Assembly: GCA_022432975.1 (NCBI GenBank)
Contig: CM039509.1
Coordinates: 46,619,167-46,683,166 of the forward strand
DNA length: 64,000 nt
Origin: Begonia masoniana
Lineage: Eukaryota; Streptophyta; Magnoliopsida; Cucurbitales; Begoniaceae
Direction: 5' to 3'
Part shown: positions 21,364-63,318 of the stretch, piece after piece
How the letters are laid out: the number at the start of each line of letters is the position of its first letter
How positions within the stretch are numbered: the stretch's first letter is position 1
Translations under genes and position numbers: made by a program
The notes under the pieces: generated by a model
Databases searched by the model: none
What the model was told of the DNA's origin: nothing
What the model saw: only the letters and a program-made list of their open reading frames with translations

Positions 21364-22498
21364 TGTACACCTAAAGGTGTACAAAACCGACCTGGATCGA
21401 AGAACCAGGCCAGAGCCAAAGTATTTGGTCCAGTTCTGGTCGGTTTTGCACTTTAAATAAAAGAATTTTAGTTTTTTTTAGGAGAACTGAAGTTCTCGTT
21501 TCGATTTTCGGGTTTAATGATACAAACCACTAAACTCAAACCGGACCATTAAAACCCTATTTAGTATTCGGCTAAGCGCTTAGTCACCACACCCCCGGCC
21601 CGCACTCTATCTTCTCACTTCTCTCTCGTTGTTTCGCACTTCACAATCGCCGCGTCCGCAACCACTATCTCTTCCCAGTTCTCTATTGCAGTTGCCGCGC
21701 TTTTCTTTTCGTCAAACTAAGAAGGACGAACCGAGTCACCAACGAAGGTAAGCCCTTGACTTTGCCTCTTTCAATTTATGTAGAGTAGGAATCAGAGCGT
21801 CTTGTTTTTTTTTAAATTGGACAAAGCCAACTGGATGTGAGTGGGTTTCTATCCATCGCGAAGCCAACTAAGAGAGTGAGATTTCAAATAGATATTTTTT
21901 TAATATTCTGTGTTGTAAATTATTTTCATTTGGTGTAATAATTTAAATAATAATTTTTTCTGGACATTAAGTTTTTGATCCTTACTCTCAACTCAACCCA
22001 GTTGAAATTGTTGCATTCACTTCTTCCTAAATGGAAATTTGAAAGAATGTTTGATTCATGGAAAAATTAAAATTGGTGGTGCTCATTTGAATGGTATATA
22101 TATAGAAATTTTCAATTATTGTACTAAAATGCCAGTGTTGATATTGATCTCGTGGAATGTGTATTGGGTATTTTGAGATTTCATTAAAAACTGATAATGG
22201 AAGATTCTTCCATGGAATTAGAAAATATCATTACTATTGATAGCTTTCTAGATAACTTGACTGAATTATATTTGGTAGAGTAAATTTTAGGCAATATGTA
22301 ATTATGTGTAAAGCTTCCTTGGGTTTTAGTATCTTTTAATGAGATCTATTAATTATTGTTTCTTGTTCTCCTTGATTTTGAGACCTATTAATCAATTTTG
22401 CTTGAGCTGATTTATTTTTTATTAGATTATTAGTTTTTGATAAATTGTTGTATTTTATAATATGGAAACATGAATCACTAATGAGATGGTAGAGATTA

Positions 22499-22838
22499 TG
22501 ATTAGAACATCCTTGACATTTTAGTTTGATTATTTATATGTTTTATTTATTTATTTCAGTTTAAGTTAATTTCTAGTCATCTAGGGTTAGGGCCAAAGTT
22601 GTCTTTTTATTTTCTAGGGTTAGACCTAATTTTGTCTATTTAAGGCTATTATTGTAACTGAAAAAGACAAGTTGATGATGATTATTGAATGAATGACATG
22701 ATGTCTATTTCCCAACCCTACTTTTCTCTCTAGCTTCCCCTCTCATTCTCTTCTTCTCAGCTTTAATTCTCCTTCTCTTTCTTCTCTTCTTCCCCTTCTT
22801 TGGCTATATTTCTTATTCTAATTCCGTTGCCTACATCA
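22499..22838 (+). repeat. 5' LTR
   Basis: 340 bp, starts TGATTAGAACATCC and ends CTACATCA. It is clearly homologous over its full length to 32642-32980. It carries the 5-bp duplication GATTA on its outer side and the PBS on its inner side. Confidence 0.85.
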
Positions 22839-22841
22839 AAT

Positions 22842-22853
22842 TGGTATCAGAGC
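22842..22853 (+). other. Primer binding site (initiator tRNA-Met)
   Basis: TGGTATCAGAGC lies three bases after the end of the left LTR. It shows that the LTR pair reads on the plus strand, opposite to the gag-pol block inside. Confidence 0.85.
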
Positions 22854-22921
22854 AGGTTTTATTGTTTTCTCAAACAATAAAATCTTGGTTTAATACCCTA
22901 ATTTTTCGTCACATATTTCGG

Positions 22922-23108
22922 GTACTGTTCATCGTGGCACTGTTCGTCACTGTTCATCGTCGCGGACTATTCATCGCGAGGTACTATTCATCGATCACTG
23001 TTCACTGATGCTGTTCATCGGTACTGTTCATCGACAGTGGTATTGTTCATTTGCTCGGGGTTACTGTTCATCCACGGCGGCACTGTTCATCGTCATTACT
23101 GTTCATCT
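22922..23108 (+). repeat. ACTGTTCATC leader minisatellite
   Basis: About twelve imperfect copies of (A)CTGTTCATCG occur at irregular 12-25 bp spacing in the untranslated leader of the retrotransposon. No coding meaning is evident. Confidence 0.7.
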
Positions 23109-23296
23109 CAGAAAAATCTAAGCTTTGATGGGAAGATCTTGCCCTCACTACCGTGGTTGTTTGCGCATTGTTGTTCTCGCACATCGGGACTTCTCTGCTT
23201 GTGGGTTTTTCCGCCTAGCCCTCTGTTTTTCATCGCGCTGGTTGCTCTTCTAATTCCTCTGTTCGGTCGAGTTTTTCTCCACTCATCGCTCTTCAT

Positions 23297-23488
23297 ATGA
23301 CGTCTGATAACCTCTCTGCGCTGTCCTATTCCAATAAAGAAAAGTACAGATTTCAAGTATCAGCTTTAAAAGTGGAAGGTGTATGTGTGAATGGCGAGTC
23401 AAGGGCTTCTGGAGTGCAGGAGGTTATAAGTGGTTCTTATGCGTTTGTGTGTGTTCATGGTATTCGAGAGAAGAAATGCGGTGTTTGA
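23297..23488 (+). pseudogene. Sucrase/ferredoxin-like gene fragment inside the retrotransposon
   Basis: A 63-codon open frame ends '...RASGVQEVISGSYAF' plus 'VCVHGIREKKCGV' before a stop. This resembles the region of plant sucrase/ferredoxin-like (thioredoxin-fold ferredoxin, AIM32-type) proteins that reads approximately 'ASGVQEVLTGSYVFVC' then 'HGSRDKRCGVCGP'. The preceding 'VEGVCVNGE' fits 'VEDVLVNGK' of the same proteins. The match stops exactly at 'CGV', so the following iron-sulphur ligand Cys is lost. It lies in the retrotransposon leader on the same strand as the LTRs and is best read as captured host coding sequence. Recognition is from memory of the family, over about 50 residues only. 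Confidence 0.5.
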
Positions 23489-24064
23489 GGAATGCATAAT
23501 TTGTTAGTTTTAAAAAGATAGTCATCCTTAATATGAAAATCATTGTTGTCGACGACTTGCCCATTTTTCAAAGCGAGGACAATATCTTTAAAATTAGGGC
23601 AGGACTCATAATCCGCTTTGAGTCTTTCGAAACCGATGATTTTAGCACTCGTGACATTTAGAATAGATATGCGACGACTTAATGCGTCAGCTACTTGATC
23701 TATACCATTTTTCTGTGTTTCAATACGAACGAATATGCTTGCAAATACTCAACTCAACGACCATGTCGAAAGTTCAATTGTTTTTTAGAATTGACATATC
23801 ATAAGGCTTCATGGTCCGAGTAAATCACAAATTCCTGAGATAACAAATAGTGACGCCAATAACGTAGAGCTTGCACAACTGCATACAATTCTCTATCATA
23901 TGTTAAATATCGTTGTTTGGCATTATTTAATTTTTCATTGAAATAAGTGATGAGGTGTCGCTCCTGGCTAAGGACGCCACCAATCCCTACTCCCGATGCG
24001 CCGCATTCAACCTCAAAAACTTTGGAGAAATCGGGAAGGTGCATTACTTGAGCTTTCGTCATTT
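23489..24064 (-). pseudogene. Ty3/gypsy RNase H and connection region, antisense
   Basis: Minus-strand continuation of the RT block. The RNase H-like frame (24062 down to 23799) contains 'LPDFSKVFEVECGASGVGIG', 'QRYLTYDRELYAVVQALRYW' and 'FVIYSDHEAL'. After frame breaks, 'DQVADALSRR' and 'DYLFKTNKLCIP' can be read, which normally stand just before the integrase zinc finger. Homology ends there, so no integrase follows on this strand. Joined to the RT part at 26274 through the solo LTR at 24070-26268. Confidence 0.85.
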
Positions 24065-24606
24065 GGATCTGTAACGCCCCGAGTTATCTGAACCCGGTTC
24101 GTTACACAAAAGTTCGTACATGACTAAGAAATCTCAACTGTATTATTATTATTTTTTTAACCTTGCTCAACATTCAACATTTGACATAAGCTAAAATCTC
24201 AAAACATTTAAAACTTGCAGCGGAAATCTTTTGGACAACAATAGAGTTAAATAAAACTATGAACACTGTTTGAAATGTAAAAAGAATAATCGGCTGAAAA
24301 GAAATAGAGGTTTAAATCGTGAAATACTTGGGAAGTCGCAGAAGTCAAACACATCTGCCGATGGATAAAGTTAACGGAAGAAGCAGAAACAGCAAATAGA
24401 AGGCTTCTACCGACGACGTTAGCTGGATAAATCAATTATCCAACATCAACCGATCGTAAAACGACAAGTTTTGCGACTCGTATCTACCGACGGCAAAACG
24501 ACAAAAAAATCTCTCATTCCCTTCTTCCGATAGAATGAACTACATATACCGATCACTAAACGACAACGCGTAATACCCACTCATACCGGTAGTGCAAAAT
24601 CTACAT

Positions 24607-24770
24607 CTTCCGATAGAATTAAACCTACATCATTCGATGGCTTTTCTGAAGACATCTTCCGATAGAATTAAACCTACATCATCCGATGGCTTTTCTGAAG
24701 ACATCTTCCGATAGAATTAAACCTACATCATCCGATAGCTTTTCTGAAGACATCTTTCGATAGAGAACAC
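24607..24770 (+). repeat. 49-bp minisatellite, first block
   Basis: About three copies of a 49-bp unit beginning ACATCTTCCGATAGAATT and containing a second, related core CATCATCCGATGG. Each unit thus carries two copies of an ACATCnnCCGAT core. The block is separated by about 370 bp of ordinary LTR sequence from a larger block of the same unit. Confidence 0.85.
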
Positions 24771-25138
24771 AGCGACATTTCAACTATTTCTTGCTATGGA
24801 AGCACAACTCTAAGTACAGAAAAGAATTTACTTATTTCACCACAACCATTCAAAAACAGTTCAAATCATTGCATTACTCAAGTCCAGTATAATCCAGTGT
24901 AAAAAAAAAAAAACAACGGGATACTATTATCAGAAAAGTCTCAAAGTACTTTTGAAAACATCAAAGCAACTTCTATCATCAGAAAGTTTAATATGCTCAA
25001 ATTGAAATCATTGTCCACTAAACATTCACAACCACTGACACCAGTTAAACCGCCCCATCAGATGCCAGATCGATGCCTGATCGCACCCCTCCAACCTGCC
25101 TAGTCCTCAACCAACTCAGAGAATTCACCTGCAGTATC

Positions 25139-25645
25139 CTCATAAACCTACATCATCCGATGGCTTTTCTGAAGACATCTTCCGATAGAATTAAACCTAC
25201 ATCATCCGATGGCTTTTCTGAAGACATCTTCCGATAGAATTAAACCTACATCATCCGATAGCTTTTCTGAAGACATCTTCCGATAGAATTAAACCTACAT
25301 CATCCGATGGCTTTTCTGAAGACATCTTCCGATAGAATTAAACCTACATCATCCGATGGCTTTTCTGAAGACATCTTCCGATAGAATTAAACCTACATCA
25401 TCCGATGGCTTTTCTGAAGACATCTTCCGATAGAATTAAACCTACATCATCCGATGGCTTTTCTGAAGACATCTTCCGATAGAATTAAACCTACATCATC
25501 CGATGGCTTTTCTGAAGACATCTTCCGATAGAATTAAACCTACATCATCCGATGGCTTTTCTGAAGACATCTTCCGATAGAATTAAACCTACATCATCCG
25601 ATGGCTTTTCTGAAGACATCTTCCGATAGAATTAAACCTACATGA
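25139..25645 (+). repeat. 49-bp minisatellite, second block
   Basis: About ten near-identical copies of the 49-bp unit in perfect register; the only obvious variant is GATAG for GATGG in one unit. The block begins in mid-unit ('cataaacctacatcatccg') directly after non-repeat sequence, so it looks like a copied or slipped piece of the first block. Confidence 0.9.
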
Positions 25646-26273
25646 TGCATGACATACAAAATCATTCACAAGATACTTAACCCTACTGTTTTGTGATGTA
25701 GGCCCGAAGGCACATGCATACTTTACTTACCTGGCTTCTGAAAATTGTTTGGTCGCTAGCTACTTCAGAAATCTGCTCACCTAAGTTCATAACATAATAT
25801 AAATCAAAACTTCACTAAACCTTACCAAGAATCAAACAGTGGTTCGAGGAATCCAATTAGAAACTCTACTACTCGAGCATTCCCCTTTTATCACTAAAAC
25901 CCGAATCTACGCTCAATCTCAGCTTTCTCAAAATCCTCACATTGTACTTCTTCAGGTATTTAACCACTATATCATAAGAGAAATGAGGAAAACTTACCTA
26001 AGTCGGAGGAGAATCGGGTAAGGAAAATCACCTAGAGAGCTCGGCTGCTTGAGCTGAAAACCCGAAGAGAAAAGTATGAAATGGTGGCGGCTACAGTGCA
26101 TTAAACCCAATCTCTCTTTCCTTAAATACGTTATCCACTTTTAAAAATGTAATTTACTCTAATGCCCTTGCCTAGTCTAGTCATTCAATAACCCTACTTA
26201 AATTATTGACTAATAAAGTGTATACAATTAATAATAAAAGAGTTGGTTCGATAGAACCGGGTGTTACAGGATC

Positions 26274-27567
26274 TTAATAGTTTTGAAGGCTCTAGATGCT
26301 GCCAATGTCCAATGAAATTCGCACTTTTTCATAGACTCGGTAACAGGAACCATAATTGTACTAAAACCTTTGATGAATCGACGATAAAAGGTAACTAGTC
26401 CGTGAAAGCTTTGAACTTCATTTAAGCTTTTAGGCTCAGGCCAATCAACAATTGCTTTAACCTTTATGGGGTCAAGGGACACTCCTGTCGTAGAGACTAA
26501 AGCCCAAGAATGTAACACTCTCCGTGAAAAATGCACACTTTTTAACATTAGCATAGAGGCTTGAAGATCGAAGCATGGTGCAAACTTGTTGGAGATGACC
26601 TTGATGTTGTTCTAAAGTTTGACTAAAAATGAGGATGTCATCGAAGTAAACAACGAGAAACTTTCCCATAAAAGGTCTAACAGCATGAATCATTACTCTC
26701 ATAAAGGTGTTTGGGGCGTTGGTGAGTCCAAATGGCATGACAAGCCACTCATAAAGACCATCATTTGTTTTGAATGCGGTCTTCCATTCGTCTCCAGGAC
26801 GAATCCTTATTTGGTGATACCTACTTCTCAGGTAAATTTTTGAGAAAATCTTAGCATTAGCCATTAAATCCAACAAGTCATCAAATCTAGGGATGAGAAA
26901 ACGATACTTTACAGTAATCTTGTTGATGGCCCGACTATCAATGCACATTCTCCAAATACCATCTTTCTTTGGGGTCAAAAGAGCTGTAACTGCACAAGGG
27001 CTTAAACTTTCACGAATAAATCTTTTATTTAAAAGTTCGTTTATTTGTCGCTGGAGTTCAACATGCTCAGTGGGGTTCATTCTATAGTGAAGCAAGTTTG
27101 GAAGGGATTCCACAGGGATGAATTCAATTTCGTGTTGAATATCTTATAATAAGGGTAACTGGTTAGGGAGGTCTTCAGAAAAGACGTCCTTAAATTCATC
27201 AATGATTGACTGGGCTTCTGCAGAGATTATGAGTGGAGGGTTTGACCCATTCTCTACTACCAACATGACAAAAACAATTGAATCGCTTTTAAGTGAACGC
27301 TCAAACTTCGTAGGAGTAATAATATTTAATCCTTTATGTTCAACAATTTTCTTTGCCTGACGAGTCTCCAGTGGTTTTAGGCTTGGGGCAAGGAGATTAA
27401 GCTGAATTTTCTTTCCCTAGAATACAAAAGAACAAAAATTTGATCGACCGTGGATAGTGATGTCCAAATCAAACAACCAAGGACGACCGAGGATGACATG
27501 ACTGACATCCATGGGAATGACATCGCACCAAAGTTGTTCTTTGTATTCAAGGAACTGAATGAGAACC
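26274..27567 (-). pseudogene. Ty3/gypsy reverse transcriptase and protease C-terminus, antisense
   Basis: Minus-strand reading gives protease C-terminal text ('VSHVILGRPWLFDLD'), a linker, then reverse transcriptase from about 27113 down to 26472: '[16 protein letters not shown]', '[20 protein letters not shown]', '[17 protein letters not shown]' and the catalytic '[12 protein letters not shown]'. The YFDD box is typical of plant Ty3 elements. It continues after a frame change to '[20 protein letters not shown]' and the start of RNase H. Stops and shifts make it non-functional. Orientation is opposite to the flanking LTRs. Confidence 0.9.
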
Positions 27568-30552
27568 TGTAACGCCCCGAATTATATAAACCCGGTTCGC
27601 TACACATAATACTGAACCACACTATGACATTCTGAGAAAATTTCAAAATTTCACTCAACGGTCAAAGTTTGACCCTTAAAATGTTAAAACTTGCAGCGGA
27701 AATTCATATGTATAAAACAACATTTATTAATTAATTAAAATATTAAAGATAATTGGTTGAAAGAAAACAAACAAAACAGAACACGTCCACCGCTGAACAA
27801 TTCCAGCGATAGAAATAGAAACAAAAGGCATTCACCACTAAACAATGTCGGCGGTAGAAGCAAAAACAAAAGGTTTCTTTTGCTACCAACGTCCACCGCT
27901 CATGTCAGCCGAATGACACGTCGACTTCTCACGTCTACCGCTCACATCCACCGATCATAAAACGACAAAACCTATTACTCACATCCACCGATCACAAAAC
28001 GACAAAACCTAGTACTCACATCCACCGATCACAAAACGACAAAACTTATTACTCACATCCACCGATCACAAAACGACAAAACCTATTGCTCACATCCACC
28101 GATCACAAAACGACAAAACCTATTACTCACATCCACCGATAGACTACATCCACCGATAGACTACATCCACCGCTAGACTACATCCACCGATAGACTACAT
28201 CCACCGATAGACTACATCCACCGATAGACTACATCCACCGATAGACTACATCCACCGATAGACTACATCCACCGATCACAAAACGACAAAACCTATTACT
28301 CACATCCACCGATCACAAAACGACAAAACCTATTACTCACATCCACCGATCACAAAACGACAAAACCTATTACTCACATCCACCGATAGACTACATCCAC
28401 CGATAGACTACATCCACCGATCACAAAACGACAAAACCTATTACTCACATCCACCGATCACAAAACGACAAAACCTATTACTCACATCCACCGATCACAA
28501 AACGACAAAACCTATTACTCACATCCACCGATCACAAAACGACAAAACCTATTACTCACATCCACCGATCACAAAACGACAAAACCTATTACTCACATCC
28601 ACCGATCACAAAACGACAAAACCTAGTACTCACATCCACCGATCACAAAACGACAAAACCTAGTACTCACATCCACCGATCACAAAACGACAAAACCTAT
28701 TACTCACATCCACCGATAGACTACATCCACCGATAGACTACATCCACCGATAGACTACATCCACCGATAGACTACATCCACCGATAGACTACATCCACCG
28801 ATAGACTACATCCACCGATAGACTACATCCACCGATCACAAAACGACAAAACCTATTACTCACATCCACCGATCACAAAACGACAAAACCTAGTACTCAC
28901 ATCCACCGATCACAAAACGACAAAACCTATTACTCACATCCACCGATAGACTACATCCACCGATAGACTACATCCACCGATAGACTACATCCACCGATAG
29001 ACTACATCCACCGATAGACTACATCCACCGATAGACTACATCCACCGATAGACTACATCCACCGATAGACTACATCCACCGATAGACTACATCCATCGAT
29101 AGATTACATCCACCGATAGACTACATCCACCGGTGAACAGCAACACTCTAAACAAACAGGCAACTCTGCCTACTAAAAGAACTGGTAAATTTTAACAGCA
29201 GCTATTCAAAACAACATAAATCCACAACTTTATAAATCCAGAATAACAATCTACAACTAAAACCAAATCGTGTTTTTCATAATCAGAAGAGCTCCAAATT
29301 AATAAAAACATTAAACTCTTGCTGTCATTAACATTCTTAGCATACTAAACTGAACATTGTTAACTAGACTTTAGCATACTAAAACTGAACCATTGTTAAC
29401 TAGACTTTCACACCTACTGACATTAGTTAAACCGCCTCATCAGAGCACCAAACCGTGGCATAACTGTGCTCCATCAACTTCACCTATTCTTCGATACATT
29501 CAGAGAATTCACCTGTTGCAACCTCAGCACCTATATCACAAAACTCATCTATTAGCCTAATGCTAAGTAAGTAAAGCAACAATGAAATGATCTGCTGAAA
29601 CATAAATCCTAGACATGCAGTTTCTACTTTCACATCTCTGTTGCATTCACGTTCTTTCTCTGATCTGATCTCTCGGTTCCATTGGGAGTTGGATCATTTT
29701 TTCCAAAGTCATACATCCTCTTCATAAATTAAGGGGCGGATTAGTTCCTTTAACAGCTGATCTGATCCTAAATTCCATTGGAAAGCGGATCAATTTTCCC
29801 AAAGTCATACATCCACTTCATAAATAAAGGGGCAGATTAGTTCCCTTAACAGCTGATCTATTACATTCTGTTCATACCTTGTCATGCCATTACATGTAAA
29901 TTCTTTTTCGTGTTCTTTCCAAAACATTATACATGACATATAGAAAACATTCAAACAAGCATAAACCTACTGTTTTGTGATGTAGACCCGAAGGCACACA
30001 CATACTCTATTTACCTGGTTTCTTGGAAAAGCTTGGTTGCAAACTACTTCGGGTTTTGCTCAAACCTATAGCCGTAGACGGAGTATTAGTTAAGCTTCAT
30101 TCTAAACTATCCTCAAATCTACCAGAACTCATAAGGAAACTAGTTTGGGAAACTCAGATCATCAAGCATTCCTGATATGCCCCGAACCCGAACTAACTCT
30201 CACTTACAGCATTCTCAAAACTCGCATTTAAAATCTCCTCTAACATCGATAGCTAAAATGTAACAAGAAATCGAAGTATAACTCACCTAGCTTGGAGAAA
30301 ATGGGAGGGAAAATCGCAGAGAGAAACTCTGCTTAGCTGAGCTGAATGCCGAGAAAGGAAAATGAGAAAACAGTAACGGCTAAACCTCATTAAACCCTCC
30401 CTTAAATACGTTATCCACTATAGATCTCCATTTACCATTATGCCCTTACTTAGTCACTCATTAACCTAATCAATATTTCTCTCAATTTTATCTATAAACT
30501 GTACACTATTAGATGACAAGGTAAAATCGGTTCGATGGAACCGGGTGTTACA
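27568..30552 (+). mobile_element. Long solo LTR 2 (same family), minisatellite-bearing
   Basis: 2985 bp, beginning TGTAACGCCCCGAATTA and ending AACCGGGTGTTACA. It is flanked by GAACC on the left (27563-27567) and GAACA on the right (30553-30557), a 5-bp duplication with one change. It shares 'aaaacttgcagcggaaat' near the start with solo LTR 1 and interrupts the antisense protease. There is no coding sequence. A 1.18-kb two-unit minisatellite (27944-29122) accounts for much of its extra length. Confidence 0.8.
27944..29122 (+). repeat. Two-unit minisatellite: 37-bp (A) and 17-bp (B) units in blocks
   Basis: Two units share the 12-bp head ACATCCACCGAT. A is 37 bp (head plus a tail starting cacaaaacgacaaaacc); B is 17 bp (head plus agact). 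Counting from the sequence, the order is A5 B8 A3 B2 A8 B7 A3 B11, with every block boundary in register and few point variants (agtactc for attactc; one gctagact). Tails never mix within a unit. A degenerate relative of the A unit ('ccgatcactaaacgacaac') is present in solo LTR 1 near 24560, so A is probably the older form. Confidence 0.9.
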
Positions 30553-31275
30553 GAACAAAACAACGCTCTTTCACAGATATGGAGGAAGTGTCAATCCATG
30601 AGACATTATAAGGTCGAGGATGAGGAACAGGTTACGGTAGCTACAGATACTGCATTAATACAACTACCACTATCCACAATGATTTTGCAGTCTTTGTTAT
30701 TGACTTTGATATATGTGTGGAAAATAGAATGATGATGCTAATCTTCAACGTCTTTAGGTTGGGTAAGCGTACATCTCACGACGCTCAGTCGAGGTGAATT
30801 AGAGGGAGTAGGCATAGAAATGGGTCGAATACATCCTAAAAAATTATCATTGTCCACATCTTCAAATTCCTCAAGGTTAGGTTCATAAATTTGCTCTTCA
30901 CTCGTCGCCCCAACTACATTTTTACATTCTTGTAAGACTAAGTTTCGGCTAAGGCAATTTAAATAAATGTGGCCAAAACCTTTACAATTGAAACATTGTA
31001 GACACGACGAACTTCGCGAACTGTCTACACTTTTTTCTTTGTTTTCTCTCGCCAAAGGGGTATTTGATGGAGGAGGTCTTAGAAGAGACTTAGGAGTAAC
31101 AGGAGTTGGGACTGAGGGAGGTCTATTGTCGCTTCGTTTACCATAAGGTATTTTCATCACTACTCATAGTCTCGAACTAATGAATATGCATGATCTAAGG
31201 AATTGATACCTCGTAGAATAAGTTCACGTCTTAGATCATCTCTTACAGGTTGGAAATCAACTTCTTTCTCCTCCT
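30553..31275 (-). pseudogene. Ty3/gypsy gag C-terminus and protease start, antisense
   Basis: Minus-strand gag text 'VRDDLRRELILRGINSLDHA' near 31160-31250 is followed after a stop by a CCHC zinc knuckle near 30960-31010 ('CFNCKGFGHIYLNC', C-x2-C-x4-H-x4-C). The retropepsin active-site motif 'IIVDSGSCINAVS' comes next, near 30655-30700. The gag N-terminus is absent: homology stops close to 31270, where plus-strand PDS5-like sequence begins. This is the upstream end of the antisense gag-pol block. Confidence 0.85.
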
Positions 31276-32049
31276 TCTTCTCTGCAGGGTCTCCTCTCTC
31301 TTCTCGACCAAGTGGATGATTGTTTGTCAAAGGTAGGACAATCCCCTTCTGAATCAATACAGAAAGCACTTTTTGCTTCCCAGAAGGCATTGATATCTGA
31401 CCAACTTCTAACGCATTCAGATATTGATGTTAAAGTTGTAGTTTCCTCTTGCCTTATTGAGATAACTAGGATCACTGCTCATGTTTCTCCCTATGATGAT
31501 GAGAAAATGAAGGTAGTATTTCACCTTATTATATCCTCATTGGAAAATATATCTGATAATTCATGCCGATCTTTTAAGAAGAGAGTAACGATTCTCGAAA
31601 CCATTGTCGAGGTTAGGATGTATATGGTTATGTTAGATCTTGAATGTGATAATTTGATTCTTAAAATGTTCTATTGCTTCCTTAGGAATATAAGGGATTA
31701 TCATCCAGAAAATGTGCTCTTGTCAATGGAGAGAATCATGACCCTAGTTTTGGAAGAAAGTGAAGATATAAATGTGAAACTATTCACAGTCATATTAGTT
31801 GTTGCAATGTGGAACAAGGAGGAAGTATTGCCCATTGCTCGAAAGTTAGGCGAAAAGGTACTTGAAAATTGTTCTACTAAGTTGAAACCCTACATAAGTC
31901 AGGCTGTAACACAGGTGGGTACCCCCATAGAAGATTACAGTGATGTAGTTTCCTCTTTATGCCAAGCGACCCTCAGCTCTGTAGAACTTGATGATTTTCC
32001 TACTGCTAGCAAAAAGATGGGAACTGCAGTAGATAAACCTTCAGAGTAA
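31276..32049 (+). pseudogene. PDS5-like cohesin regulator fragment captured in the retrotransposon
   Basis: An intronless open frame of about 250 codons resembles the N-terminal HEAT-repeat region of plant PDS5 (sister-chromatid cohesion protein, binds cohesin to control its release and stability). Diagnostic stretches include 'LLDQVDDCLSKVGQSP', 'HSDIDVKVVVSSCLIEITRI', 'MLDLECDNLILKMF', 'RDYHPENVLLSMERIMTLVL', 'EESEDINVK' and 'ARKLGEKVLENC'. It starts directly after a pyrimidine-rich tract ending in cag at about 31290 and ends at a stop before chromodomain sequence. Lack of introns across this length suggests capture from spliced RNA. It has no start codon of its own that is conserved and has changes at conserved positions, so it is probably not functional. 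Confidence 0.8.
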
Positions 32050-32052
32050 GTT

Positions 32053-32580
32053 ATGAGAAATGGAAGCGCCTTTAATGTAGACCATGTTCTGGGAAAGCTG
32101 GAAGTTAAACAGGAGGATGGAAAACCCATTTACCAATCAAGGAATTTTGATCGTGACTTTAATGTCGAAGACTTGGTAGCTTATAAATGTCATTTTAAGC
32201 CATATGTTGATCTTTTTCTTCCTCCATCTATCGATTTTGATCCTACTAACTCTGCTTTCCCAACAGCTCCTATCACAACACACGAGGATAAAATTGATAC
32301 TATTTTAGGTGAACAGATTGTATTTACTAATGAAGGTAAGGTTCAACGCTTTCTAGTTCGTTGGGTAGGTCGACCAAATAATAAATGTATGTGGATGTCC
32401 AGGGATGTACTCCAACATTTGGATCTAGACCTCTTGGAGCTCTTCCAGAGTCATCAAGATCTTTCTTTTCCAAATTCTGGGATAGTTCGAAAAGATTCCC
32501 GATCCAAGCCCCCAGTCACACTAGTTTATGGTCACCGACAGAAGGTTGCTCAGCCCCTTAACTTATGGTCGGGAGATTGA
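32053..32580 (+). pseudogene. Ty3/gypsy integrase C-terminus with chromodomain
   Basis: Plus-strand frame directly upstream of the right LTR. It holds the region typical of plant chromoviral integrase C-termini: 'FDRDFNVEDLVAYKCHFKPY', then 'DKIDTILGEQIVFTNEGKVQ', 'RFLVRWVGRP', 'MWMSRDVLQHLDLDLLEL', ending at 32580. The chromodomain normally guides integration to modified chromatin. It agrees in strand with the LTRs and PBS and disagrees with the gag-pol block. The integrase zinc finger and DDE core are absent. Confidence 0.8.
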
Positions 32581-32641
32581 TTAGTTGCGGTATTATGGTT
32601 CTTTCAATTTGACTGGGTTGTTTTTTCTACCTCGGGAGAGT

Positions 32642-32980
32642 TGATGAGGACATCCTTGACATTTTAGTTTGATTATTTATATGTTTTATTTATTTATTTC
32701 AGTTTAAGTTAATTTCTCGTCTTCTAGGGTTAGGGCCAAAGTTGTCTTTTCATTTTATATTGTTAGACCTAATTTTGCCTATTTAAGTCTATTATTGTAA
32801 CTAGGAAAGACAATTGAAGATGATTATTGAATGAATGACATGATGTCTATGTCCCAACCCTACTTTTCTCTCTAGCTTCCCCTCCCTTTCTCTTCTTCTC
32901 GGCTTTAATTCTCCTTCTATTTCTTCTCTTCTTCCCCCTCTTCGGCTATATTTCTTATTCTAATTTTGCTGCCTGCATCA
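32642..32980 (+). repeat. 3' LTR
   Basis: 339 bp, TGATGAGGACATCC...GCCTGCATCA, homologous throughout to 22499-22838. It is preceded by a short purine-rich stretch (cgggagag) acting as polypurine tract and followed by the duplication GATTA. Confidence 0.85.
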
Positions 32981-32985
32981 GATTA

Positions 32986-51700: not shown

Positions 51701-54700
51701 TCCATTAAGCAATTTGGATAAGGCCCCTTAAACAAGGAAATCTTGTAATATATAAGGTTGGGAAAAGAAAATAAAAAAAGAAGGTTTTTTTTTTTTTTTG
51801 TGAAAATCTGTATAATACTGCAAGTGGTTTTGATCTGTTCAGTAACTTGAGGATATTATGCCTTTAAATTGATAAAAAAGACGGTGCAATTAATAATTTT
51901 TTAGTGTGAGGTGCTAATATATGATCCTTCTTTTCTAGTTACGAGAACTTGCATTGGCCAACATTGGTGCAATCAACAAACGTGCTAATCTTGCGAAGAA
52001 GTTGTCTGTTCTTTCTCCACAGGAGTTGAAAGACTTAGTTTGTTGCAAGGTTCGCTTGACAATTAATTGATATCTTTTGTTTTTTTGTTGGTGGAAATAT
52101 ATATCTCTGCAATGAGACTTACGTATATCTTTACTTTTACTGATAAGAATAGTTTTTGCAGGTGAGACCAGTATCACGATATGCTTTAACTATGTTTTTT
52201 TTTCTATTATTTGTTATTTTATTTATTTGTAATTTATATTATGTTTCCTTCATTGGGAAATCTGTGAATAGAAAGTACCCAGAACCAAAGACAGTATTAG
52301 ATACTACTTTATGGTCTTCATATCCTGGAAAATAAATACTGTAGTAGCCCTCTTGTCGAGTACTTGAAGTTTTATACCTATTGAAGTCCCCGTTGTTTCG
52401 TTTTTATACCTATTGAAGTCCCCGTTGTTTCTTTCTTTCCATAGGAATCAAAGTTCAGTTGGCATGAAAGCATTAGAAACAGCTGGAACTCTAGCTATCC
52501 TTCTTCATTTGAAAAAATTCTATAATTATTTCTTGCGTCGACCACTGCACACCAAATTGTTTCTGCAACATAGGATGCCTCCCTTGCATAAGTGCCACAT
52601 ATTATGATTAGCGAACTCTTAGGTTGCTGATATAGCTTCTCCATTTTTTTGGTTGACATCTCATTTACATAGAGCACTGTTAGATTATCTGATCAACAGT
52701 CTTTTTTGGTTGCTCATAAGTTTTGATGAACATGATTTGTATCTATGGAAGATTATTACAAAAAAATTAGTGTCTCGAGTATTTGATGTGGCTTCCTGAT
52801 CTTTTGTTCTGTTGTAAGTTGCTAGATATTTGAACTGGTATTAGACGTATGGAGAGTTTTATATTTACTGTGTAGAGATGGAAAACATAGAGGTCATGAT
52901 AATGCGTTGTTGCATGTACTTGATGTAGATGATTCAAACTTGTTTATGCTTTTCTTGCGTCAGTTGTTGAGCCAATTTTTTGTTGAGGTAATATTGTTAG
53001 TAAAACGCTATTCCTTTCTGTGGTCCTTTACACAAGCACCCAAAAGGTACATTACAGCACTTGAAAAATGAAAAGTGCATTGTTCAATTGTATAGTTTAC
53101 CACTTAGTGGTACTTACATTTTTTCTTTTACTTCATCCGATAGAAGTTCTAGAAATTCTGGGTATATTAGTGCTTTTGCAGTTATCTGTAAAATTGTTTA
53201 TTGCTTTCCAGATTGAAAGTTCTAGTTTTACCATGCTCTTTATGTCATTTTGTAGTTTTTGGATAATTCTTTAATCAAGATTTCTTTCCTTTTATGGGAC
53301 TCATGCGCCTAAAAAATTGAATTGTGCCTTTTGACATTTTTTTTCTTTTTCTACTACAGTTTGGTAGCTATAAATCATGAAACAACATGGATATTGTATG
53401 CTCAAGTTTTTCTCTAATCATGCAGCTCAAACTGGTTTCAAAGGAAGATCCCTGGTCAGAAAGAGTTGATTTTCTGATTGAGGTCGTGGTTTCCTTTTTT
53501 GAGAAGCAAAAATCTCAAAAGGAAGCCATAAATGCTCTTCCACTTTATCCGAATGAGGAGATCATGTGGGATGAAAGTCTAGTTCCAAGTATTAATTACT
53601 CAGGCGAAGGTTGTTTGGCTCTTCCAAAACTGAACCTTCAGTTTTTAACGCTCCATGATTATCTTCTGAGAAATTTTAATCTCTTCCGTCTTGAATCAAC
53701 TTATGAGATTCGTGAAGATATTCAGGAAGCTATTCCACATCTTCTAGCACACATTAATAATGAAGGTGAAACATCATTCCGTGGTTGGTCGAGAATGGCT
53801 GTGCCTATTAAACAATTCAAGATCTCTGAGGTAAAGCAACCAAACATTGGGGAAGTCAAGCCATCTTCTGTGACAGCTGAAGTCACTTTCAGCATATCCA
53901 GTTATAAAGCTCAAATAAGATCTGAATGGAATTCCCTTAAAGAACATGATGTTTTATTTTTACTTTCTATTCAGCCTTTATTTGAGCCTCTAAGTGAAGA
54001 AGAAGCTGCCAGGGCTACTGTGCCACAGAAACTTGGTCTTCAATATGTACGCGGATGTGAAATTATTGAAATGCGTGATGAGGAGGGAACTCTAATGAAT
54101 GATTTTACTGGAAGAATAAAACCAGATGAATGGAAACCTCCCAAGGGGGAGTTGAGAACTGTCACTGTTGCTTTGGATACAGCACAATACCACATGGATG
54201 TGAGCAATATTGCAGAGAAAGGCACAGAGGATGTTTATGGGACATTCAACGTGTTAATGAGGAGGAAACCTAAGGAAAACAACTTCAAAGCAATTTTAGA
54301 ATCTATAAGGGATCTAATGAACGAATATTGTATTGTTCCCGATTGGTTGCATAACATTTTTTTGGGATATGGGAATCCTTCGGCAGCTCAGTGGACTAAT
54401 ATGCCTGATCTTTTAGAAACAGTAGATTTTAAGGACACTTTTCTTGATGCAAACCATTTGAAAGATAGTTTCCCCAATTTTGAGGTCATTGTCTTTTTAC
54501 TTTTAACCCTTAAAAATGATTTTTGTTACATTTTTGTGTGAAACTATGAGCTTAAGATTCCATTTTTTTTTTTTGCCATTTTCAGGTTTGCTTTAAAAAC
54601 TCAGATGGTGTAGAAAACTTATATCCCAAACCCCCTTTCAGGATTAGGCTTCCCAGAACGCTGAAAAGTAGCAGCCATGCCATTTCAGACTGTAAAAAGC

Positions 54701-57700
54701 CTACTAATGACTCACTGAATGATAACAATGTGGAAGATGCCTGTCCTGAGAAAGAGGAACTAATTGTTGAGGCATACATTCCTCCTGACCCCGGTCCTTA
54801 TCCGCAGGATCAGCCTAAGCAGAACTCTGTTAGATTTACTCCGACACAGGTATTTTGAAATATTTTTCAATTAAGTTAATAAATTACAATTTAATTATTT
54901 TTTCTCCTATGACTTGTCTTATTTGCTTTCAAAATCTGAACTAATGAAAAATGGATTCAGTAATTACATCAAGCAGTGTAATCTAGCAATTTATTTTGCG
55001 ACTTAAGTTTTACCTAAATACAAAAAAAAAAAAAAAAAATTGTGTGCAAAAAAAGCATTGTTGTTGTTAGTAGATAATATGTATTAACATGCATCTTTTT
55101 CATTGCATTAAAAAATAGTATTTCTTGTGGAAAAAAGGTATGTGATTAAGCGCTCATCTTCAACTAATAGCCTCTCACGACGAATTATAGATGCAATGTC
55201 AGTGACTATTAAGTTATAAACAATATAACGCAGTGACAACACACAATTGAGCAATCAGTTCTTAGGTTGAGGCTACTCCAACATTACTAAATGTCCAATC
55301 ATTTTCTTCTAACTCTGCTTTTTTTTTTGGGTCATATAATTGAGTGTTCTTCGGTGCAAGGTGCTAAAGACTGTGCAGAAGGTCTTGCTAATTTTATACC
55401 CTGCCTACTATTCAATGGCCCTACAAATTTGGCCATTTTATATGCGTCAGTTTTTTGCATAATTGGGAGTTCATATCAAAATTTGAGCACAAGATTGGTT
55501 ATAGTTGTTTTGTTCCCTTCTAGCTCTTCTAAGCCTCAAGTTCGTTTCAAGTTTTTAGTGGTTTGAATGTTAAAACCCCTCTTCTAAATTATTTGCACAT
55601 AAGAGAGGAATTATGCTGTAATTTGTCTTGCTTCTTATATTGTTGCTCCGTTATTAGAAATTTGAATGTTAAAAACCCTCTGAATTATTTTCACATCAGA
55701 AAGGAATTATGCTTTAAATTGTCTTGCTTCTTATATTGTTGCTCCGTTATTGGTAGGTTGGCGCTATCATTTCCGGCGTTCAACCTGGATTAACAATGGT
55801 TGTTGGTCCACCTGGTACGGGAAAGACTGATACAGCTGTGCAAATACTAAATGTTCTTTATCACAACTGTCCTTCTCAGAGAACTTTGATAATTACTCAT
55901 TCAAATCAGGCTCTTAATGACCTTTTTGAGAAAATAATGGAGGTATTAAGTTAAAACATTTACATATTCATTTTTTTTCTTCAATTAAAAAAATATCAGA
56001 TAATTAGCATCTTCTTTATGCTCTTTAGAGGGATGTTCCTGCTCGGTATCTGCTCCGACTTGGTCAAGGTGAACAAGAACTAGCAACTGATCTTGATTTC
56101 AGCCGTCAAGGACGTGTTAATGCGATGTTGGTGCGAAGGTTAGAATTACTAAGTGAGGTGGAGAGGCTAGCAAGATCTCTTCAACTGCCAGAGGACGTAA
56201 GCTACACCTGTGAAACTGCTGGATACTTTTGGTTACTTCATGTGTACTCACGTTGGGAGCAATTCATTGCTGCTTGTGTAGGAAATAATAATAAACCAAC
56301 GTTTGTTAAAGACAGGTTCCCCTTCAAGGAGTTTTTCTCCAACACTCCGAGCCCCATTTTCACTGGTGAATCTTTTGAAAAAGATATGCGTTCAGCAAAA
56401 GGATGCTTGCGTCATCTTAAGACCATGTTTCAAGAGCTTGAAGAGTGTAGGGCTTTTGAATTACTCAAGTCAACAGCTGATCGTGCAAATTACTTAATGA
56501 CGAAACAGGCAAAGATTGTTGCTATGACATGCACTCATGCGGCTTTGAAAAGGAAGGATTTTCTTCGTTTGGGTTTTAAGTATGATAACCTATTGATGGA
56601 AGAAAGTGCCCAAATATTAGAGATTGAGACTTTCATTCCAATGCTGCTCCAAAGGCAAGAAGATGGTTATGCACGTCTTAAACGCTGCGTTTTGATTGGT
56701 GATCATCATCAGTTGCCTCCTGTTGTAAAGAATATGGCTTTTCAAAAGTACAGTCATATGGATCAGAGTTTATTTACAAGATTTGTTCGTTTGGGCATTC
56801 CTTATATTGAACTCAATGCTCAGGGTAGAGCACGTCCTAGCATAGCTGAACTTTATAATTGGAGGTACAGAGATTTAGGAGATCTGCCCATTGTAAAGGA
56901 GGGATCTGCCTTCCATAAGGCAAATGCTGGATTTTCCTATGACTATCAGTTAGTGGATGTTCCAGACTACCAAGGGAGAGGGGAAACTGCCCCTTCTCCT
57001 TGGTTCTATCAAAATGAAGGGGAAGCTGAGTATGTTGTGAGTGTCTACATATTTATGAGGTTGCTAGGGTATCCTGCAAACAAGATATCCATCTTGACAA
57101 CTTACAATGGTCAGAAACTATTACTTCGTGATGTTATCAATCGAAGATGTGTTCCATACGACTTCATTGGCCCACCAAGCAAGGTTAGTGTACTAAAACA
57201 TTGTCTGTTCTATAATTGGAATTTCTGATTTAGGTCAGCATTTTTATTGTCTAGACTCGGTTTCCTGTGGAGCAAACTCGGTGTCCTTCATTTATGGACA
57301 GGACCATTCCTTAGTGCTAATTTCAATTGAAATGAATTTGGTTGGGGTGTTTTATTTGTGCTTATTGAATAATTCAGATAGTGGCCTTTCATTGCTGTTA
57401 TCTTTTCATCTCTTTGATCTTTTACGCTTTCTGTTGACAAATTATTGAAATTGTGCGGTCAATAATTATATTCAGGTCACCACAGTTGATAAATTTCAAG
57501 GTCAGCAAAATGATTTTATTTTATTGTCTCTTGTGCGTACGCGATTTGTTGGGCACCTTCGGGATGTTAGAAGATTGGTTGTGGCCATGTCTCGTGCTCG
57601 GCTTGGTCTCTATGTGTTTTGTCGTCGCTCTCTGTATGAACAGTGCTATGAACTGCAGCCAACATTTCAACTACTGCTTCAAAGGCCTGACCATCTTGGT

Positions 57701-61767: not shown

Positions 61768-62361
61768 GAAGGATAGAATTATAAAAATTTGAACTTTCTT
61801 GTACCTTTTGACTATATTTTGTAATTTAAACGTAATATTATTCTTAATTGACAAATCATTTGAGATTTAAAATCGGGGGATATTTTAAAATTTAAAATAA
61901 TTTCTATTAATAAAGTAATGAAAATGTTTGTCACAAAATATATAAAGTATGGATAATATTATATCAGTGACTGTAAATTAAAATTATTTGAAATTAAACT
62001 TCAGATTACTCTCCTAAACTAGGAGTCCTAATTTCTTGTTGCAGATCTTCCCCTCAAAATATGCACTCCTTCCTGCTTAATTACTGAAACAGGCATCCCG
62101 GAAACTTCGTTATGCTATTATTCAAAGTAAATAGAGTGAGATAAGAGGGGTATTTTGGACCTCTTACGTAAGATTATCGACCACACTCATGCAGGCTCTC
62201 TCTCTCTACTGCAGCGTAAAAGCTTCGAACTTTGGTTTTTCTTCTTTCATCTCCACTTTCCATATTCATCTCCCTCCTTTTTCTGATTCTCCTCGAATTT
62301 CTTGCTTCCTTCCTTTCACGTTTCTTCCTGTTTCATCTGCTCCCGGGGGCTTCTGAGGACG
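61768..62361. other. Intergenic and promoter region
   Basis: AT-rich 3' flank of the HIT gene, then a pyrimidine-rich stretch with a short (CT)n tract near 62196-62206 that probably belongs to the 5' UTR of the next gene. No other feature is seen. Confidence 0.5.
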
Positions 62362-63318
62362 ATGGGGCGTTGTGATCGGGTCCGTCTCCGACATGCTGAC
62401 GGCACTCCGGGTGGTCGCCATTATCGCGATAACCGTCTCGCTGCTGAGACCAAAGCCTCGGTAGGGTTTCGGCGATGTTTGAAGCGCGGGAGGATTGGGA
62501 TGTCTCCAGATGAGGTTTGCGCTGAGAAGAAGACAAAAGGGGTGGCCATGGCGGGTTTTGTGAAGAAGCGTTGTCTTGTGTTGATGGAAGCGCTGATCGA
62601 CCATCCGTATGGGGAAGTTTTCCGAGATATCACCACTCTCGCTTCGATTCCTACTCATGGATCTGAGTACATGAAAAGATTGACAAAACGAATGGATCTG
62701 TCGACGATTAAGAGCGGCTTAGAGAAGGGGGACTATTCTGCAATCGAGGGATTCGCCGGAGATGTCAGACTCGTCTTCTCCAACGCACTGATGTTCTTTC
62801 CCGTTGAGAACGATGTTAATACAATGGCGAAGAGGATGATTAGAGATTTCGAGATCGAACTGAAAAAGGCAATGTCAGAGATCAAGATGAACGCGGGGGA
62901 AAATATTTTCGCCGTCGTTTCAGATTCCGACGAAGGATCAGAAAAATCCGTGAGTCGCCAGGGGTTTAACGATTCATCGAAATATAAATCACCAACCAAA
63001 AGCCCTAAAACAGTTCTGAAAAGTACCGGAGCAACGCCGCCGAGAGCCGCTCTGTTAAAGGAGAGATTCAAAGAAACGATACTGAAAGCAGAGATGTCGC
63101 TTCTTGGCATGGGCGGAGAGAATAAACTTGAAGAGATGAAGAGAAAGAGGAAAAGGGAAGCTGCAAGAGAGGCTCTCAAAAAGATGGAGAAGTTGGTGAA
63201 ATTCAATGAAATTGACGATCATAAAGCTCTGAAGGAACTGGAATCAGGTTCCTCCGGCAGAAAAATATTATCCAGATTGGGATTGCTTCTCAGGGAGGAA
63301 GCTTCAGAGCTTGATTGA
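62362..63318 (+). CDS. Intronless bromodomain protein, GTE-like, with degenerate pocket
   Basis: 318 aa without introns; the ATG at 62362 is the first in frame after stops and non-coding sequence. Residues about 70-175 align with plant GTE bromodomains: 'CLVLMEALIDHPYGEVF' (helix Z), 'MKRLTKRMDLSTIKSGLEKG' and 'FAGDVRLVFSNALMFFP' then 'ENDVNTMAKRM'. The C-terminal 'EMKRKRKREAAREALKKMEK' resembles the coiled segment of GTE proteins. Bromodomains bind acetyl-lysine on histones through a conserved Tyr-Asn pair; here the equivalent of 'YNP' reads 'FFP', and the usual 'PVD' of the ZA loop is also absent. It probably lacks normal acetyl-lysine binding or has another role. A full open frame argues against a dead copy. 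A basic N-terminus may serve in nuclear import. Confidence 0.75.
   Translation: MGRCDRVRLRHADGTPGGRHYRDNRLAAETKASVGFRRCLKRGRIGMSPDEVCAEKKTKGVAMAGFVKKRCLVLMEALIDHPYGEVFRDITTLASIPTHGSEYMKRLTKRMDLSTIKSGLEKGDYSAIEGFAGDVRLVFSNALMFFPVENDVNTMAKRMIRDFEIELKKAMSEIKMNAGENIFAVVSDSDEGSEKSVSRQGFNDSSKYKSPTKSPKTVLKSTGATPPRAALLKERFKETILKAEMSLLGMGGENKLEEMKRKRKREAAREALKKMEKLVKFNEIDDHKALKELESGSSGRKILSRLGLLLREEASELD

Follow-up and report, generated by a model that had tools for sequence, protein, structure and literature searches.

Bs1 of maize is an LTR element holding fragments of three host genes and forming a new chimeric gene, and the review sections consulted name it as the exception (PMC13317346) to the single-gene captures of a maize LTR survey (PMC2774510). 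That survey covered 425 intact elements with at least 189 gene-fragment captures and, in the portion available, records no case in which a single element combines fragments of two or more standard nuclear genes. The same review sections describe the TRIM P450 and Rider/SUN transductions, plant retroelements with single transduced segments, and BARE-2 type chimeras, mosaics produced via template switching between packaged retroelement RNAs (PMC13317346).

Here we describe a family of LTR elements in Begonia masoniana, one copy of which lies in the window, that is, the whole stretch of 64,000 nucleotides of contig CM039509.1 that was analysed. Like Bs1, as far as the review excerpt describes it (PMC13317346), the family combines several host gene fragments with a chimeric frame, but it differs in having many dispersed copies, several architectures, swapped modules and other host genes, and in retaining an integrase-tail/chromodomain end and including very young copies. 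By domain content, the scanned frames hold other domains than the Bs1 cargo (proton ATPase, xylan endohydrolase and beta-1,3-glucanase). Bs1 is a fair analogy for the mechanism, the Begonia family being diversified, multi-copy and built from other cargo genes. The maize captures are likewise LTR elements with host gene fragments, whereas every architecture here that carries the sucrase/ferredoxin-like (SUF) piece has at least two host genes, unlike the elements in the available part of the survey (PMC2774510). As excerpted in the review (PMC13317346), TRIM P450 and Rider/SUN share the transduction of host sequence by a plant retroelement but not the several internal modules, changed between copies, seen here; the BARE-2 chimeras are also mosaic elements, but their partners are retroelement RNAs, whereas host mRNAs are also involved here. 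The additional ORFs of plant LTR elements likewise represent an extra frame kept in several copies but, in the part of that source at hand, they lie beside gag/pol (PMC7264820), whereas the host chain here replaces gag and most of pol. Among the matches listed from open-licence literature, no comparable multi-gene capturing family was found, and the sole PDS5 item concerned rice meiocyte proteins.

The window element proved to have the boundaries of the original prediction, with a 5' LTR (TGATT...CATCA) at 22499-22838 and a 3' LTR at 32642-32980, both on the plus strand and flanked by a perfect GATTA target-site duplication (22494-22498 and 32981-32985). The predicted primer-binding site is also present as a PBS-like TGGTATCAGAGC at 22842-22853 on the plus strand, which we take to be of the initiator Met tRNA type and because of which the element reads on that strand; a purine-rich, PPT-like stretch (32630-32641, plus strand) adjoins the 3' LTR. 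The plus-strand leader from the PBS to the SUF start codon (22841-23296) contains 2 ATGs, where shuffled sequences have 6.2 (P 0.03). It is followed by a degraded, host-derived SUF fragment at 23297-23488 (plus strand), whose frame alone (63 aa, 23297-23485) matched no Pfam family, but the aligned homologous regions of sister loci L025 and L019 matched Suc_Fer-like (PF06999; 6e-14 and 6.8e-12).

The intronless PDS5-like frame claimed on the LTR strand was borne out, as the frame at 31312-32046 matched Pfam PF20168 (E 5.9e-42, profile positions 12-208 of 1053) and, in the PDB, PDS5 homolog B (1.4e-15). The extent needed correction, with the spliced N-terminal fragment running from approximately 31249 to 32157 (plus strand) and not from 31276 to 32049. 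An in-frame stop at 32047-32049 ends the PDS5 frame; the next frame (32053-32580) shares its reading frame and contains a Ty3/gypsy integrase C-terminal tail (32158-32580, plus strand) with a chromodomain at about 32293-32451. The Chromo match is weak in the window (3.2e-5, 24.2 bits; Pfam cut-off 25.1), above the Pfam cut-off in L019 (1.7e-6) and just below it in L012 (2.7e-5). An integrase-bearing relative with an integrase core in L041 has a tail about 80% alike (40 of 522 first-look candidates were scored in the integrase-tail search), and a protein search with the chromodomain tail returned, within a set range of lengths, one protein, a Gypsy pol fragment. No gag start or integrase core was seen by eye among the listed plus-strand frames of the window element, as predicted.

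In the window copy 7.7 kb lie between SUF and PDS5, made up of antisense Gypsy sequence and tandem repeats of 49, 37 and 17 bp (23489-31248, ends approximate, minus strand), including Pfam RT (26472-27113) and RNase H (23799-24062) domains and, by eye, a gag zinc-knuckle frame (30738-31160), all on the minus strand. Because this block is missing between SUF and PDS5 in 19 of the 22 sister loci, the 19 in which both pieces are seen, it must be a later addition to the window copy. The window LTRs show 25 differences over 339 aligned sites (K2P 0.078), giving an age of 3.0-5.6 My at the substitution rates assumed. The age, the antisense split, the in-frame stop and a codon substitution ratio near neutrality in its clade (see below) leave the earlier view, in which cargo from two genes might be expressed intact, unsupported for this copy; it is an old, dead and disrupted member of a branch without a third cargo.

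Further LTR elements bearing this cargo, anticipated by the original prediction, do exist. Counting the window, there are 23 PDS5-bearing element loci spread over 10 contigs and one intron-bearing PDS5 donor gene; the 29 PDS5 pieces comprise these 23, four in the donor, a second piece in the split copy L028 and an inverted bit in L009. Paired LTRs, a target duplication, a PBS and a PPT mark the family as LTR retrotransposons, with an LTR-to-LTR length of 2.9-4.2 kb in L012, L019, L021 and L023, where 5-bp duplications are present and the LTRs of a pair differ by 0-3 substitutions. Apart from a gag piece retained in L029, L042 and L043, no gag, RT or integrase core of the elements' own was seen in those element-strand frames that were inspected by eye and, for some, with Pfam. 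The family is a non-autonomous derivative of a Ty3/gypsy chromovirus, with the integrase C-terminal chromodomain present and no autonomy genes seen in these frames. In TR-GAG non-autonomous elements gag is the sole frame; the family falls outside that definition, as the L043 frame joins gag, myosin IQ and the integrase tail, and SUF-type copies show no gag in the element-strand frames examined.

Between PDS5 and the chromodomain lies nothing, an AAA/bromodomain piece from an At1g05910-type gene, or a myosin-like coiled coil plus TAF2, while diverged family members carry gag and myosin. Besides SUF, PDS5 and the bromodomain, the modules identified were an ATAD2-type AAA piece, TAF2 and a myosin neck, with up to four host genes in one architecture and at least five in the family. 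Pfam and the PDB named PDS5, Suc_Fer, bromodomain/ATAD2, TAF2 and myosin, and the cargo is not a set of ordinary gag/integrase variants. NCBIfam gave no match, nor did the PDB search with the 255-aa coiled-coil/TAF2 frame of L022, and a protein search with an 856-aa frame gave no match covering more than 49% among the 120 of 701 matches listed. Copies are mosaic: L015 is L019-like (98%) and then L012-like (99-100%), and L021 likewise. The ATAD module has spread recently, since it is 98-100% alike in L012, L015, L021 and L023 despite differing 5' parts. The type A/B difference is not splicing of one transcript, as the type A ATAD piece replaces about 35 bp of the integrase tail. Two further ideas were dropped: a preference for insertion close to genes (visual inspection of 14 upstream flanks, of which 13 contained frames) and shared bases at junctions, at most of which only one parent sequence is known.

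The intron-bearing PDS5 donor lies at C1:17136664-17137725, elsewhere in the genome as had been predicted, with more exon matches in L031; of the five introns separating captured exons, four had readable GT-AG borders, and the element piece lacks the introns. The ATAD donor was matched exon by exon at C6:50901805-50905566, and the nearest SUF donor candidate is 70% alike in amino acids. Intronless cargo and intron-bearing donors support Bs1-like transduction of spliced host RNA for PDS5 and ATAD. The earlier Bs1-type claim thus stood as to spliced capture but was too small in scale, the family being multi-copy and carrying more cargo genes.

A full open frame (489-874 codons) is present in nine of the 23 loci, five among the 8 of type A and four among the 11 of type B, and a single 864-codon frame joins SUF, PDS5, bromodomain and chromodomain. 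Four of the six open-frame loci with measurable LTR pairs show 0-3 LTR substitutions. For each of the nine junction kinds, one or more copies keep the frame across the junction; mismatches occur between PDS5 and the myosin-like part in L022 and between gag and myosin in L042. Stops numbered 4 in the young clade versus 15.7 expected and 10 in the old clade versus 9.2 expected, the expectation (tree length x about 360 codons x stop share of mutations) being rough and leaving frameshifts uncounted. Seven of 15 leaders lack any ATG and 10 fall below shuffles at P 0.05 (all but L010, L011, L025, L026 and L028), although the leaders are related sequences and the shuffle tests non-independent. The young-clade PDS5 part gave an omega (dN/dS) of 0.60 (2dlnL 16.7), with the same direction but weaker signal by halves (5' 2dlnL 3.9, 3' 10.1), in codon tests that assume a single tree although copies recombine. 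No significant constraint was detected in SUF (0.85), the chromodomain (0.82) or the little-diverged ATAD part (1.28), and the window's clade (6 old copies) had an omega of 1.16, not different from 1; this old clade looks to be evolving neutrally. Stops and gapped codons were masked, and the omega 1 fit used a grid of kappa values. The SUF-PDS5 sets comprised 14 young copies, 9 open ones and 6 or 7 old ones, with L027, L029 and L030 excluded as partial, the chromodomain set 13 young and 4 old, and the ATAD set 7. Fully open frames survive in some young copies, which suggests that what is being retained is the openness of the frame.

Capture of spliced host mRNAs by a trans-mobilised element, filtered for one continuous frame, is probably the best reading of these sequences. 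The missing genes point to an LTR family that would be mobilised in trans, and because the cargo is spliced and the copies are mosaic, template switching during reverse transcription would have added spliced host mRNA pieces one after another. The in-frame junctions of young types, depleted stops and few upstream ATGs indicate that the chains lately spread are single frames, each starting at the first post-leader ATG and reaching the integrase tail/chromodomain near the 3' LTR. The simplest reason would be a need for translation along almost the whole RNA, which might serve, for instance, escape from nonsense-mediated decay or reaching particles.

It is conceivable, if unlikely, that the frames of the young copies specify a functional fusion of chromatin readers (PDS5 HEAT part, bromodomain and chromodomain), largely of stolen host exons. 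Acting in trans, it would steer or shield the element, for example by anchoring the integration complex to chromatin that is acetylated or bound by cohesin, or by weakening silencing. The omega of the young-clade PDS5 part, the recent ATAD spread and the nature of the three modules, chromatin readers or cohesin regulators, would fit such a role; but the ATAD and chromodomain parts lack significant constraint, SUF and myosin are non-chromatin proteins, the AAA domain is present only in part, and the 14 upstream flanks judged by eye hold some host-gene-like and some transposon-like frames. If true, it would mean a retrotransposon evolving by host-domain swaps in the interval from the 5' frame to the chromodomain. 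Still less probable is that the cargo is neutral ballast whose frames are open merely through the youth of the copies, as the neutral old clade and the SUF, ATAD and chromodomain parts would allow, and as genes captured in rice, mostly not under purifying selection in the part of that report consulted (PMC3726574), might lead one to expect; the stop deficit of the young clade, the few leader ATGs and the in-frame junctions argue against it. Host exons brought in by DNA rearrangement or mis-assembly are very improbable, despite rearranged copies (inverted pieces in L009 and L014, L013 and L015 in tandem), given the absent PDS5 introns with readable donor borders, the ATAD matches in separate exons, the spread of loci over contigs and the clear 5-bp duplications in four copies besides the window's.

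With mRNA capture and frame filtering as the favoured reading, gene capture appears in this family as something modular that happened again and again: five or more host genes are involved, the architectures are several, and some copies are very recent. It makes testable the question of whether captured host sequence is ballast or is under selection for an open frame or an encoded protein, for which the young clade, with its kept frames, and the old clade, which looks neutral, provide an internal control.

At window 22499-32980 the element has, as had been predicted, a pair of LTRs, a PBS and the target duplication GATTA, and it is read on the + strand because the PBS stands after the left LTR. 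Along that strand follow a leader, a degraded fragment of a sucrase/ferredoxin-like gene (SUF), an N-terminal fragment of PDS5 and the C-terminal end (tail) of a Ty3/gypsy integrase with its chromodomain. Of the two host-gene frames in the original prediction, the PDS5 identity is certain (PF20168, 5.9e-42), and that of SUF is supported through the sister copies only. Both SUF and PDS5 were seen in 19 of the 22 sister loci, and there the two adjoin closely; in the window copy 7.7 kb separates them, made up of tandem repeats and of Gypsy sequence in antisense. This block (23489-31248) holds gag, RT and RNase H fragments antisense to the element, without clean LTR ends, and may be either a nested insertion that lost its ends or an antisense capture during reverse transcription. 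Extensive tandem arrays with units of 49, 37 and 17 bp (24473-25730 and 27904-29183) sit within stretches starting near TGTAACGCCCCG and finishing near GTTACAG, which resemble LTR interiors from another Gypsy family. The LTR pair differs at 25 of 339 positions (K2P 0.078), giving an age of 3.0-5.6 My at rates of 1.3e-8 and 7e-9. Elsewhere in the window are host-gene frames near the element (53387-57225 and 62302-63315; Aquarius-like domains together with helicase domains of the AAA type, and a frame with a bromodomain), and the C-terminal part of a hAT transposase (866-2191) within an open 442-codon frame.

Used as a query against its own genome, the PDS5 fragment returned 29 pieces, comprising 23 element loci (window included), one donor gene (four pieces), another part of a split copy and an inverted bit. 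The expectation that other LTR copies bear the same cargo was thus borne out, as was that of a spliced PDS5 cargo with an intron-bearing donor: the captured exons stand apart in the donor, L031, and four of the five intervening introns have readable GT-AG borders. The captured part, which starts beside what looks like the donor's initiating ATG, continues the frame of SUF; the non-element loci closest to SUF are 67-70% alike. A cluster of 17 SUF-like matches at G000:C7:8846046-8958167, most with one in-frame TGA and many about 2 kb apart, appears to be a tandem gene array or a repeat array.

The window copy is one member of a family. Type B elements (SUF-PDS5-integrase tail) account for 11 of the 23 PDS5 loci (window, L009, L010, L011, L014, L016, L017, L019, L020, L024, L028). 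Eight more, type A, add an AAA-tail/bromodomain piece, ATAD (L012, L013, L015, L018, L021, L023, L027, L030); no SUF was seen in L027 and L030, both partial loci. The bromodomain piece matched ATAD2 in the PDB (3.1e-23) and, among the plant proteins listed, At1g05910-type proteins at up to 64%, and its donor was matched exon by exon at C6:50901805-50905566. Type C (L022, L025, L026) carries TAF2 (in L026, PF25577 5.7e-15; PDB 5.2e-7) and a coiled coil which we take to be myosin-like, without a myosin match in Pfam or the PDB. The remaining locus, L029, combines gag, myosin and PDS5. With 40 of 522 candidates for the shared tail scored, two of four further loci (L042, L043) join gag and myosin IQ motifs to the same tail, an arrangement absent from the other two (L041, L044); a fifth, L045, is 98% like L018 and represents type A truncated at the 5' end. 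The myosin, presumably of class XI, was recognized from the neck of L042 (PDB myosin-5A, 1.5e-22; IQ, 1.2e-17); gag was assigned there by PF03732 at 1.7e-4, slightly below the cut-off, and in L043 by similarity. At 4.6-7.5 kb of the oriented loci L009 and L014, parts of the LTR, the leader and the integrase tail (in L009 also the PDS5 start) are inverted and stand head to head, as if produced by strand switching in reverse transcription.

A single open frame spans 864-874 codons in five of the eight type A loci (L012, L013, L015, L021, L023) and 489-525 codons in four of the 11 type B loci (L017, L019, L020, L028). In L025 a shared frame, interrupted by stops, takes in SUF, PDS5, the coiled coil and TAF2-chromodomain, and gag, myosin and tail lie within a single frame in L043; exceptions are L022, whose coiled coil is in another frame than PDS5, and L042, where gag and myosin are out of frame with each other. 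Junctions of nine kinds occur in frame, each in one copy or more: SUF/PDS5, PDS5/tail, PDS5/ATAD, ATAD/tail, PDS5/coiled coil, coiled coil/TAF2, TAF2/tail, gag/myosin and myosin/tail. Were any frame free for each, chance alone would give a probability of about 5e-5; the figure is informal, since junction histories are shared and the best copy was chosen per junction.

Recent movement shows in the LTR pairs, which were measurable in six of the nine open copies and gave 0/373 differences in L021 (LTR lengths differing by 11 bp), 0/309 in L019, 1/306 in L023, 3/442 in L012, 12/355 in L017 and 15/404 in L028, with 5-bp duplications present in the first four. The duplication is unreadable at L013 and L015 because each is in tandem with another copy, a further PBS and leader following the 3' LTR. 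By sliding window, L015 resembles L019 at 98% across SUF and the early part of PDS5, and L012 at 99-100% beyond it; L021 resembles L023 at 99-100% to begin with, and L012 at 98-100% further on. A SUF-PDS5 tree built from 14 young copies has type A interspersed with type B. Template switching among RNAs packaged together would be expected to yield such mosaics; recombination of copies already integrated could also produce them.

Neither RT nor an integrase core was seen in the element-strand frames read, and the LTR-to-LTR length of 2.9-4.2 kb in L012, L019, L021 and L023 leaves little room. On its minus strand, L041 carries a chromodomain and the core of an integrase (rve, matched right at the cut-off with 9.9e-8); its tail is 79-80% like that of the window copy and its LTR piece 81% like that of L009. 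It is the kind of relative that could supply the enzymes, and we infer that it does so.

The closest known case is Bs1 of maize, described in a review as having transduced three genes and as containing a chimeric gene (PMC13317346); a maize survey reports no LTR element with pieces from more than one nuclear gene (PMC2774510). Rice captures are described as mostly without purifying selection, and sorghum captures as under it more often (PMC3726574).

Codon models, which ignore recombination, were fitted to the SUF-PDS5 segment. Omega (dN/dS) was 0.66 in the young clade (14 copies; 2dlnL ~15 against omega 1), 0.60 for the PDS5 part alone (16.7) and 0.60 in the nine open copies (16.4). Halves of the segment gave 0.74 (2dlnL 3.9) and 0.62 (10.1) in the young clade, and 0.60 (7.8) and 0.66 (5.0) in the open copies. 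No omega differed from 1 for SUF (0.85), the chromodomain (0.82) or ATAD (1.28), and that of the old clade without the donor (six copies, the branch of the window copy) was indistinguishable from 1 (1.16). Additionally, the young clade held 4 stops versus ~15.7 expected (P 5e-4) and the old clade 10 versus 9.2. Seven of 15 leaders were free of ATGs (L012, L013, L015, L017, L020, L021, L023; shuffle means 3.5-6.1); L011 and L019 held one, L026, L028 and the window copy two, and L025 three, with 17 (23.9 in shuffles) and 60 (54.5) in the insertion-bearing leaders of L018 and L010. Counts fell below shuffles at P <=0.05 in ten of the 15, and did not in L010, L011, L025, L026 and L028. The pattern is one of stops and upstream starts avoided and amino acids weakly kept, which suggests that selection for an open, translated frame fits better than selection for a precise protein, with a protein role kept possible by the PDS5 part.
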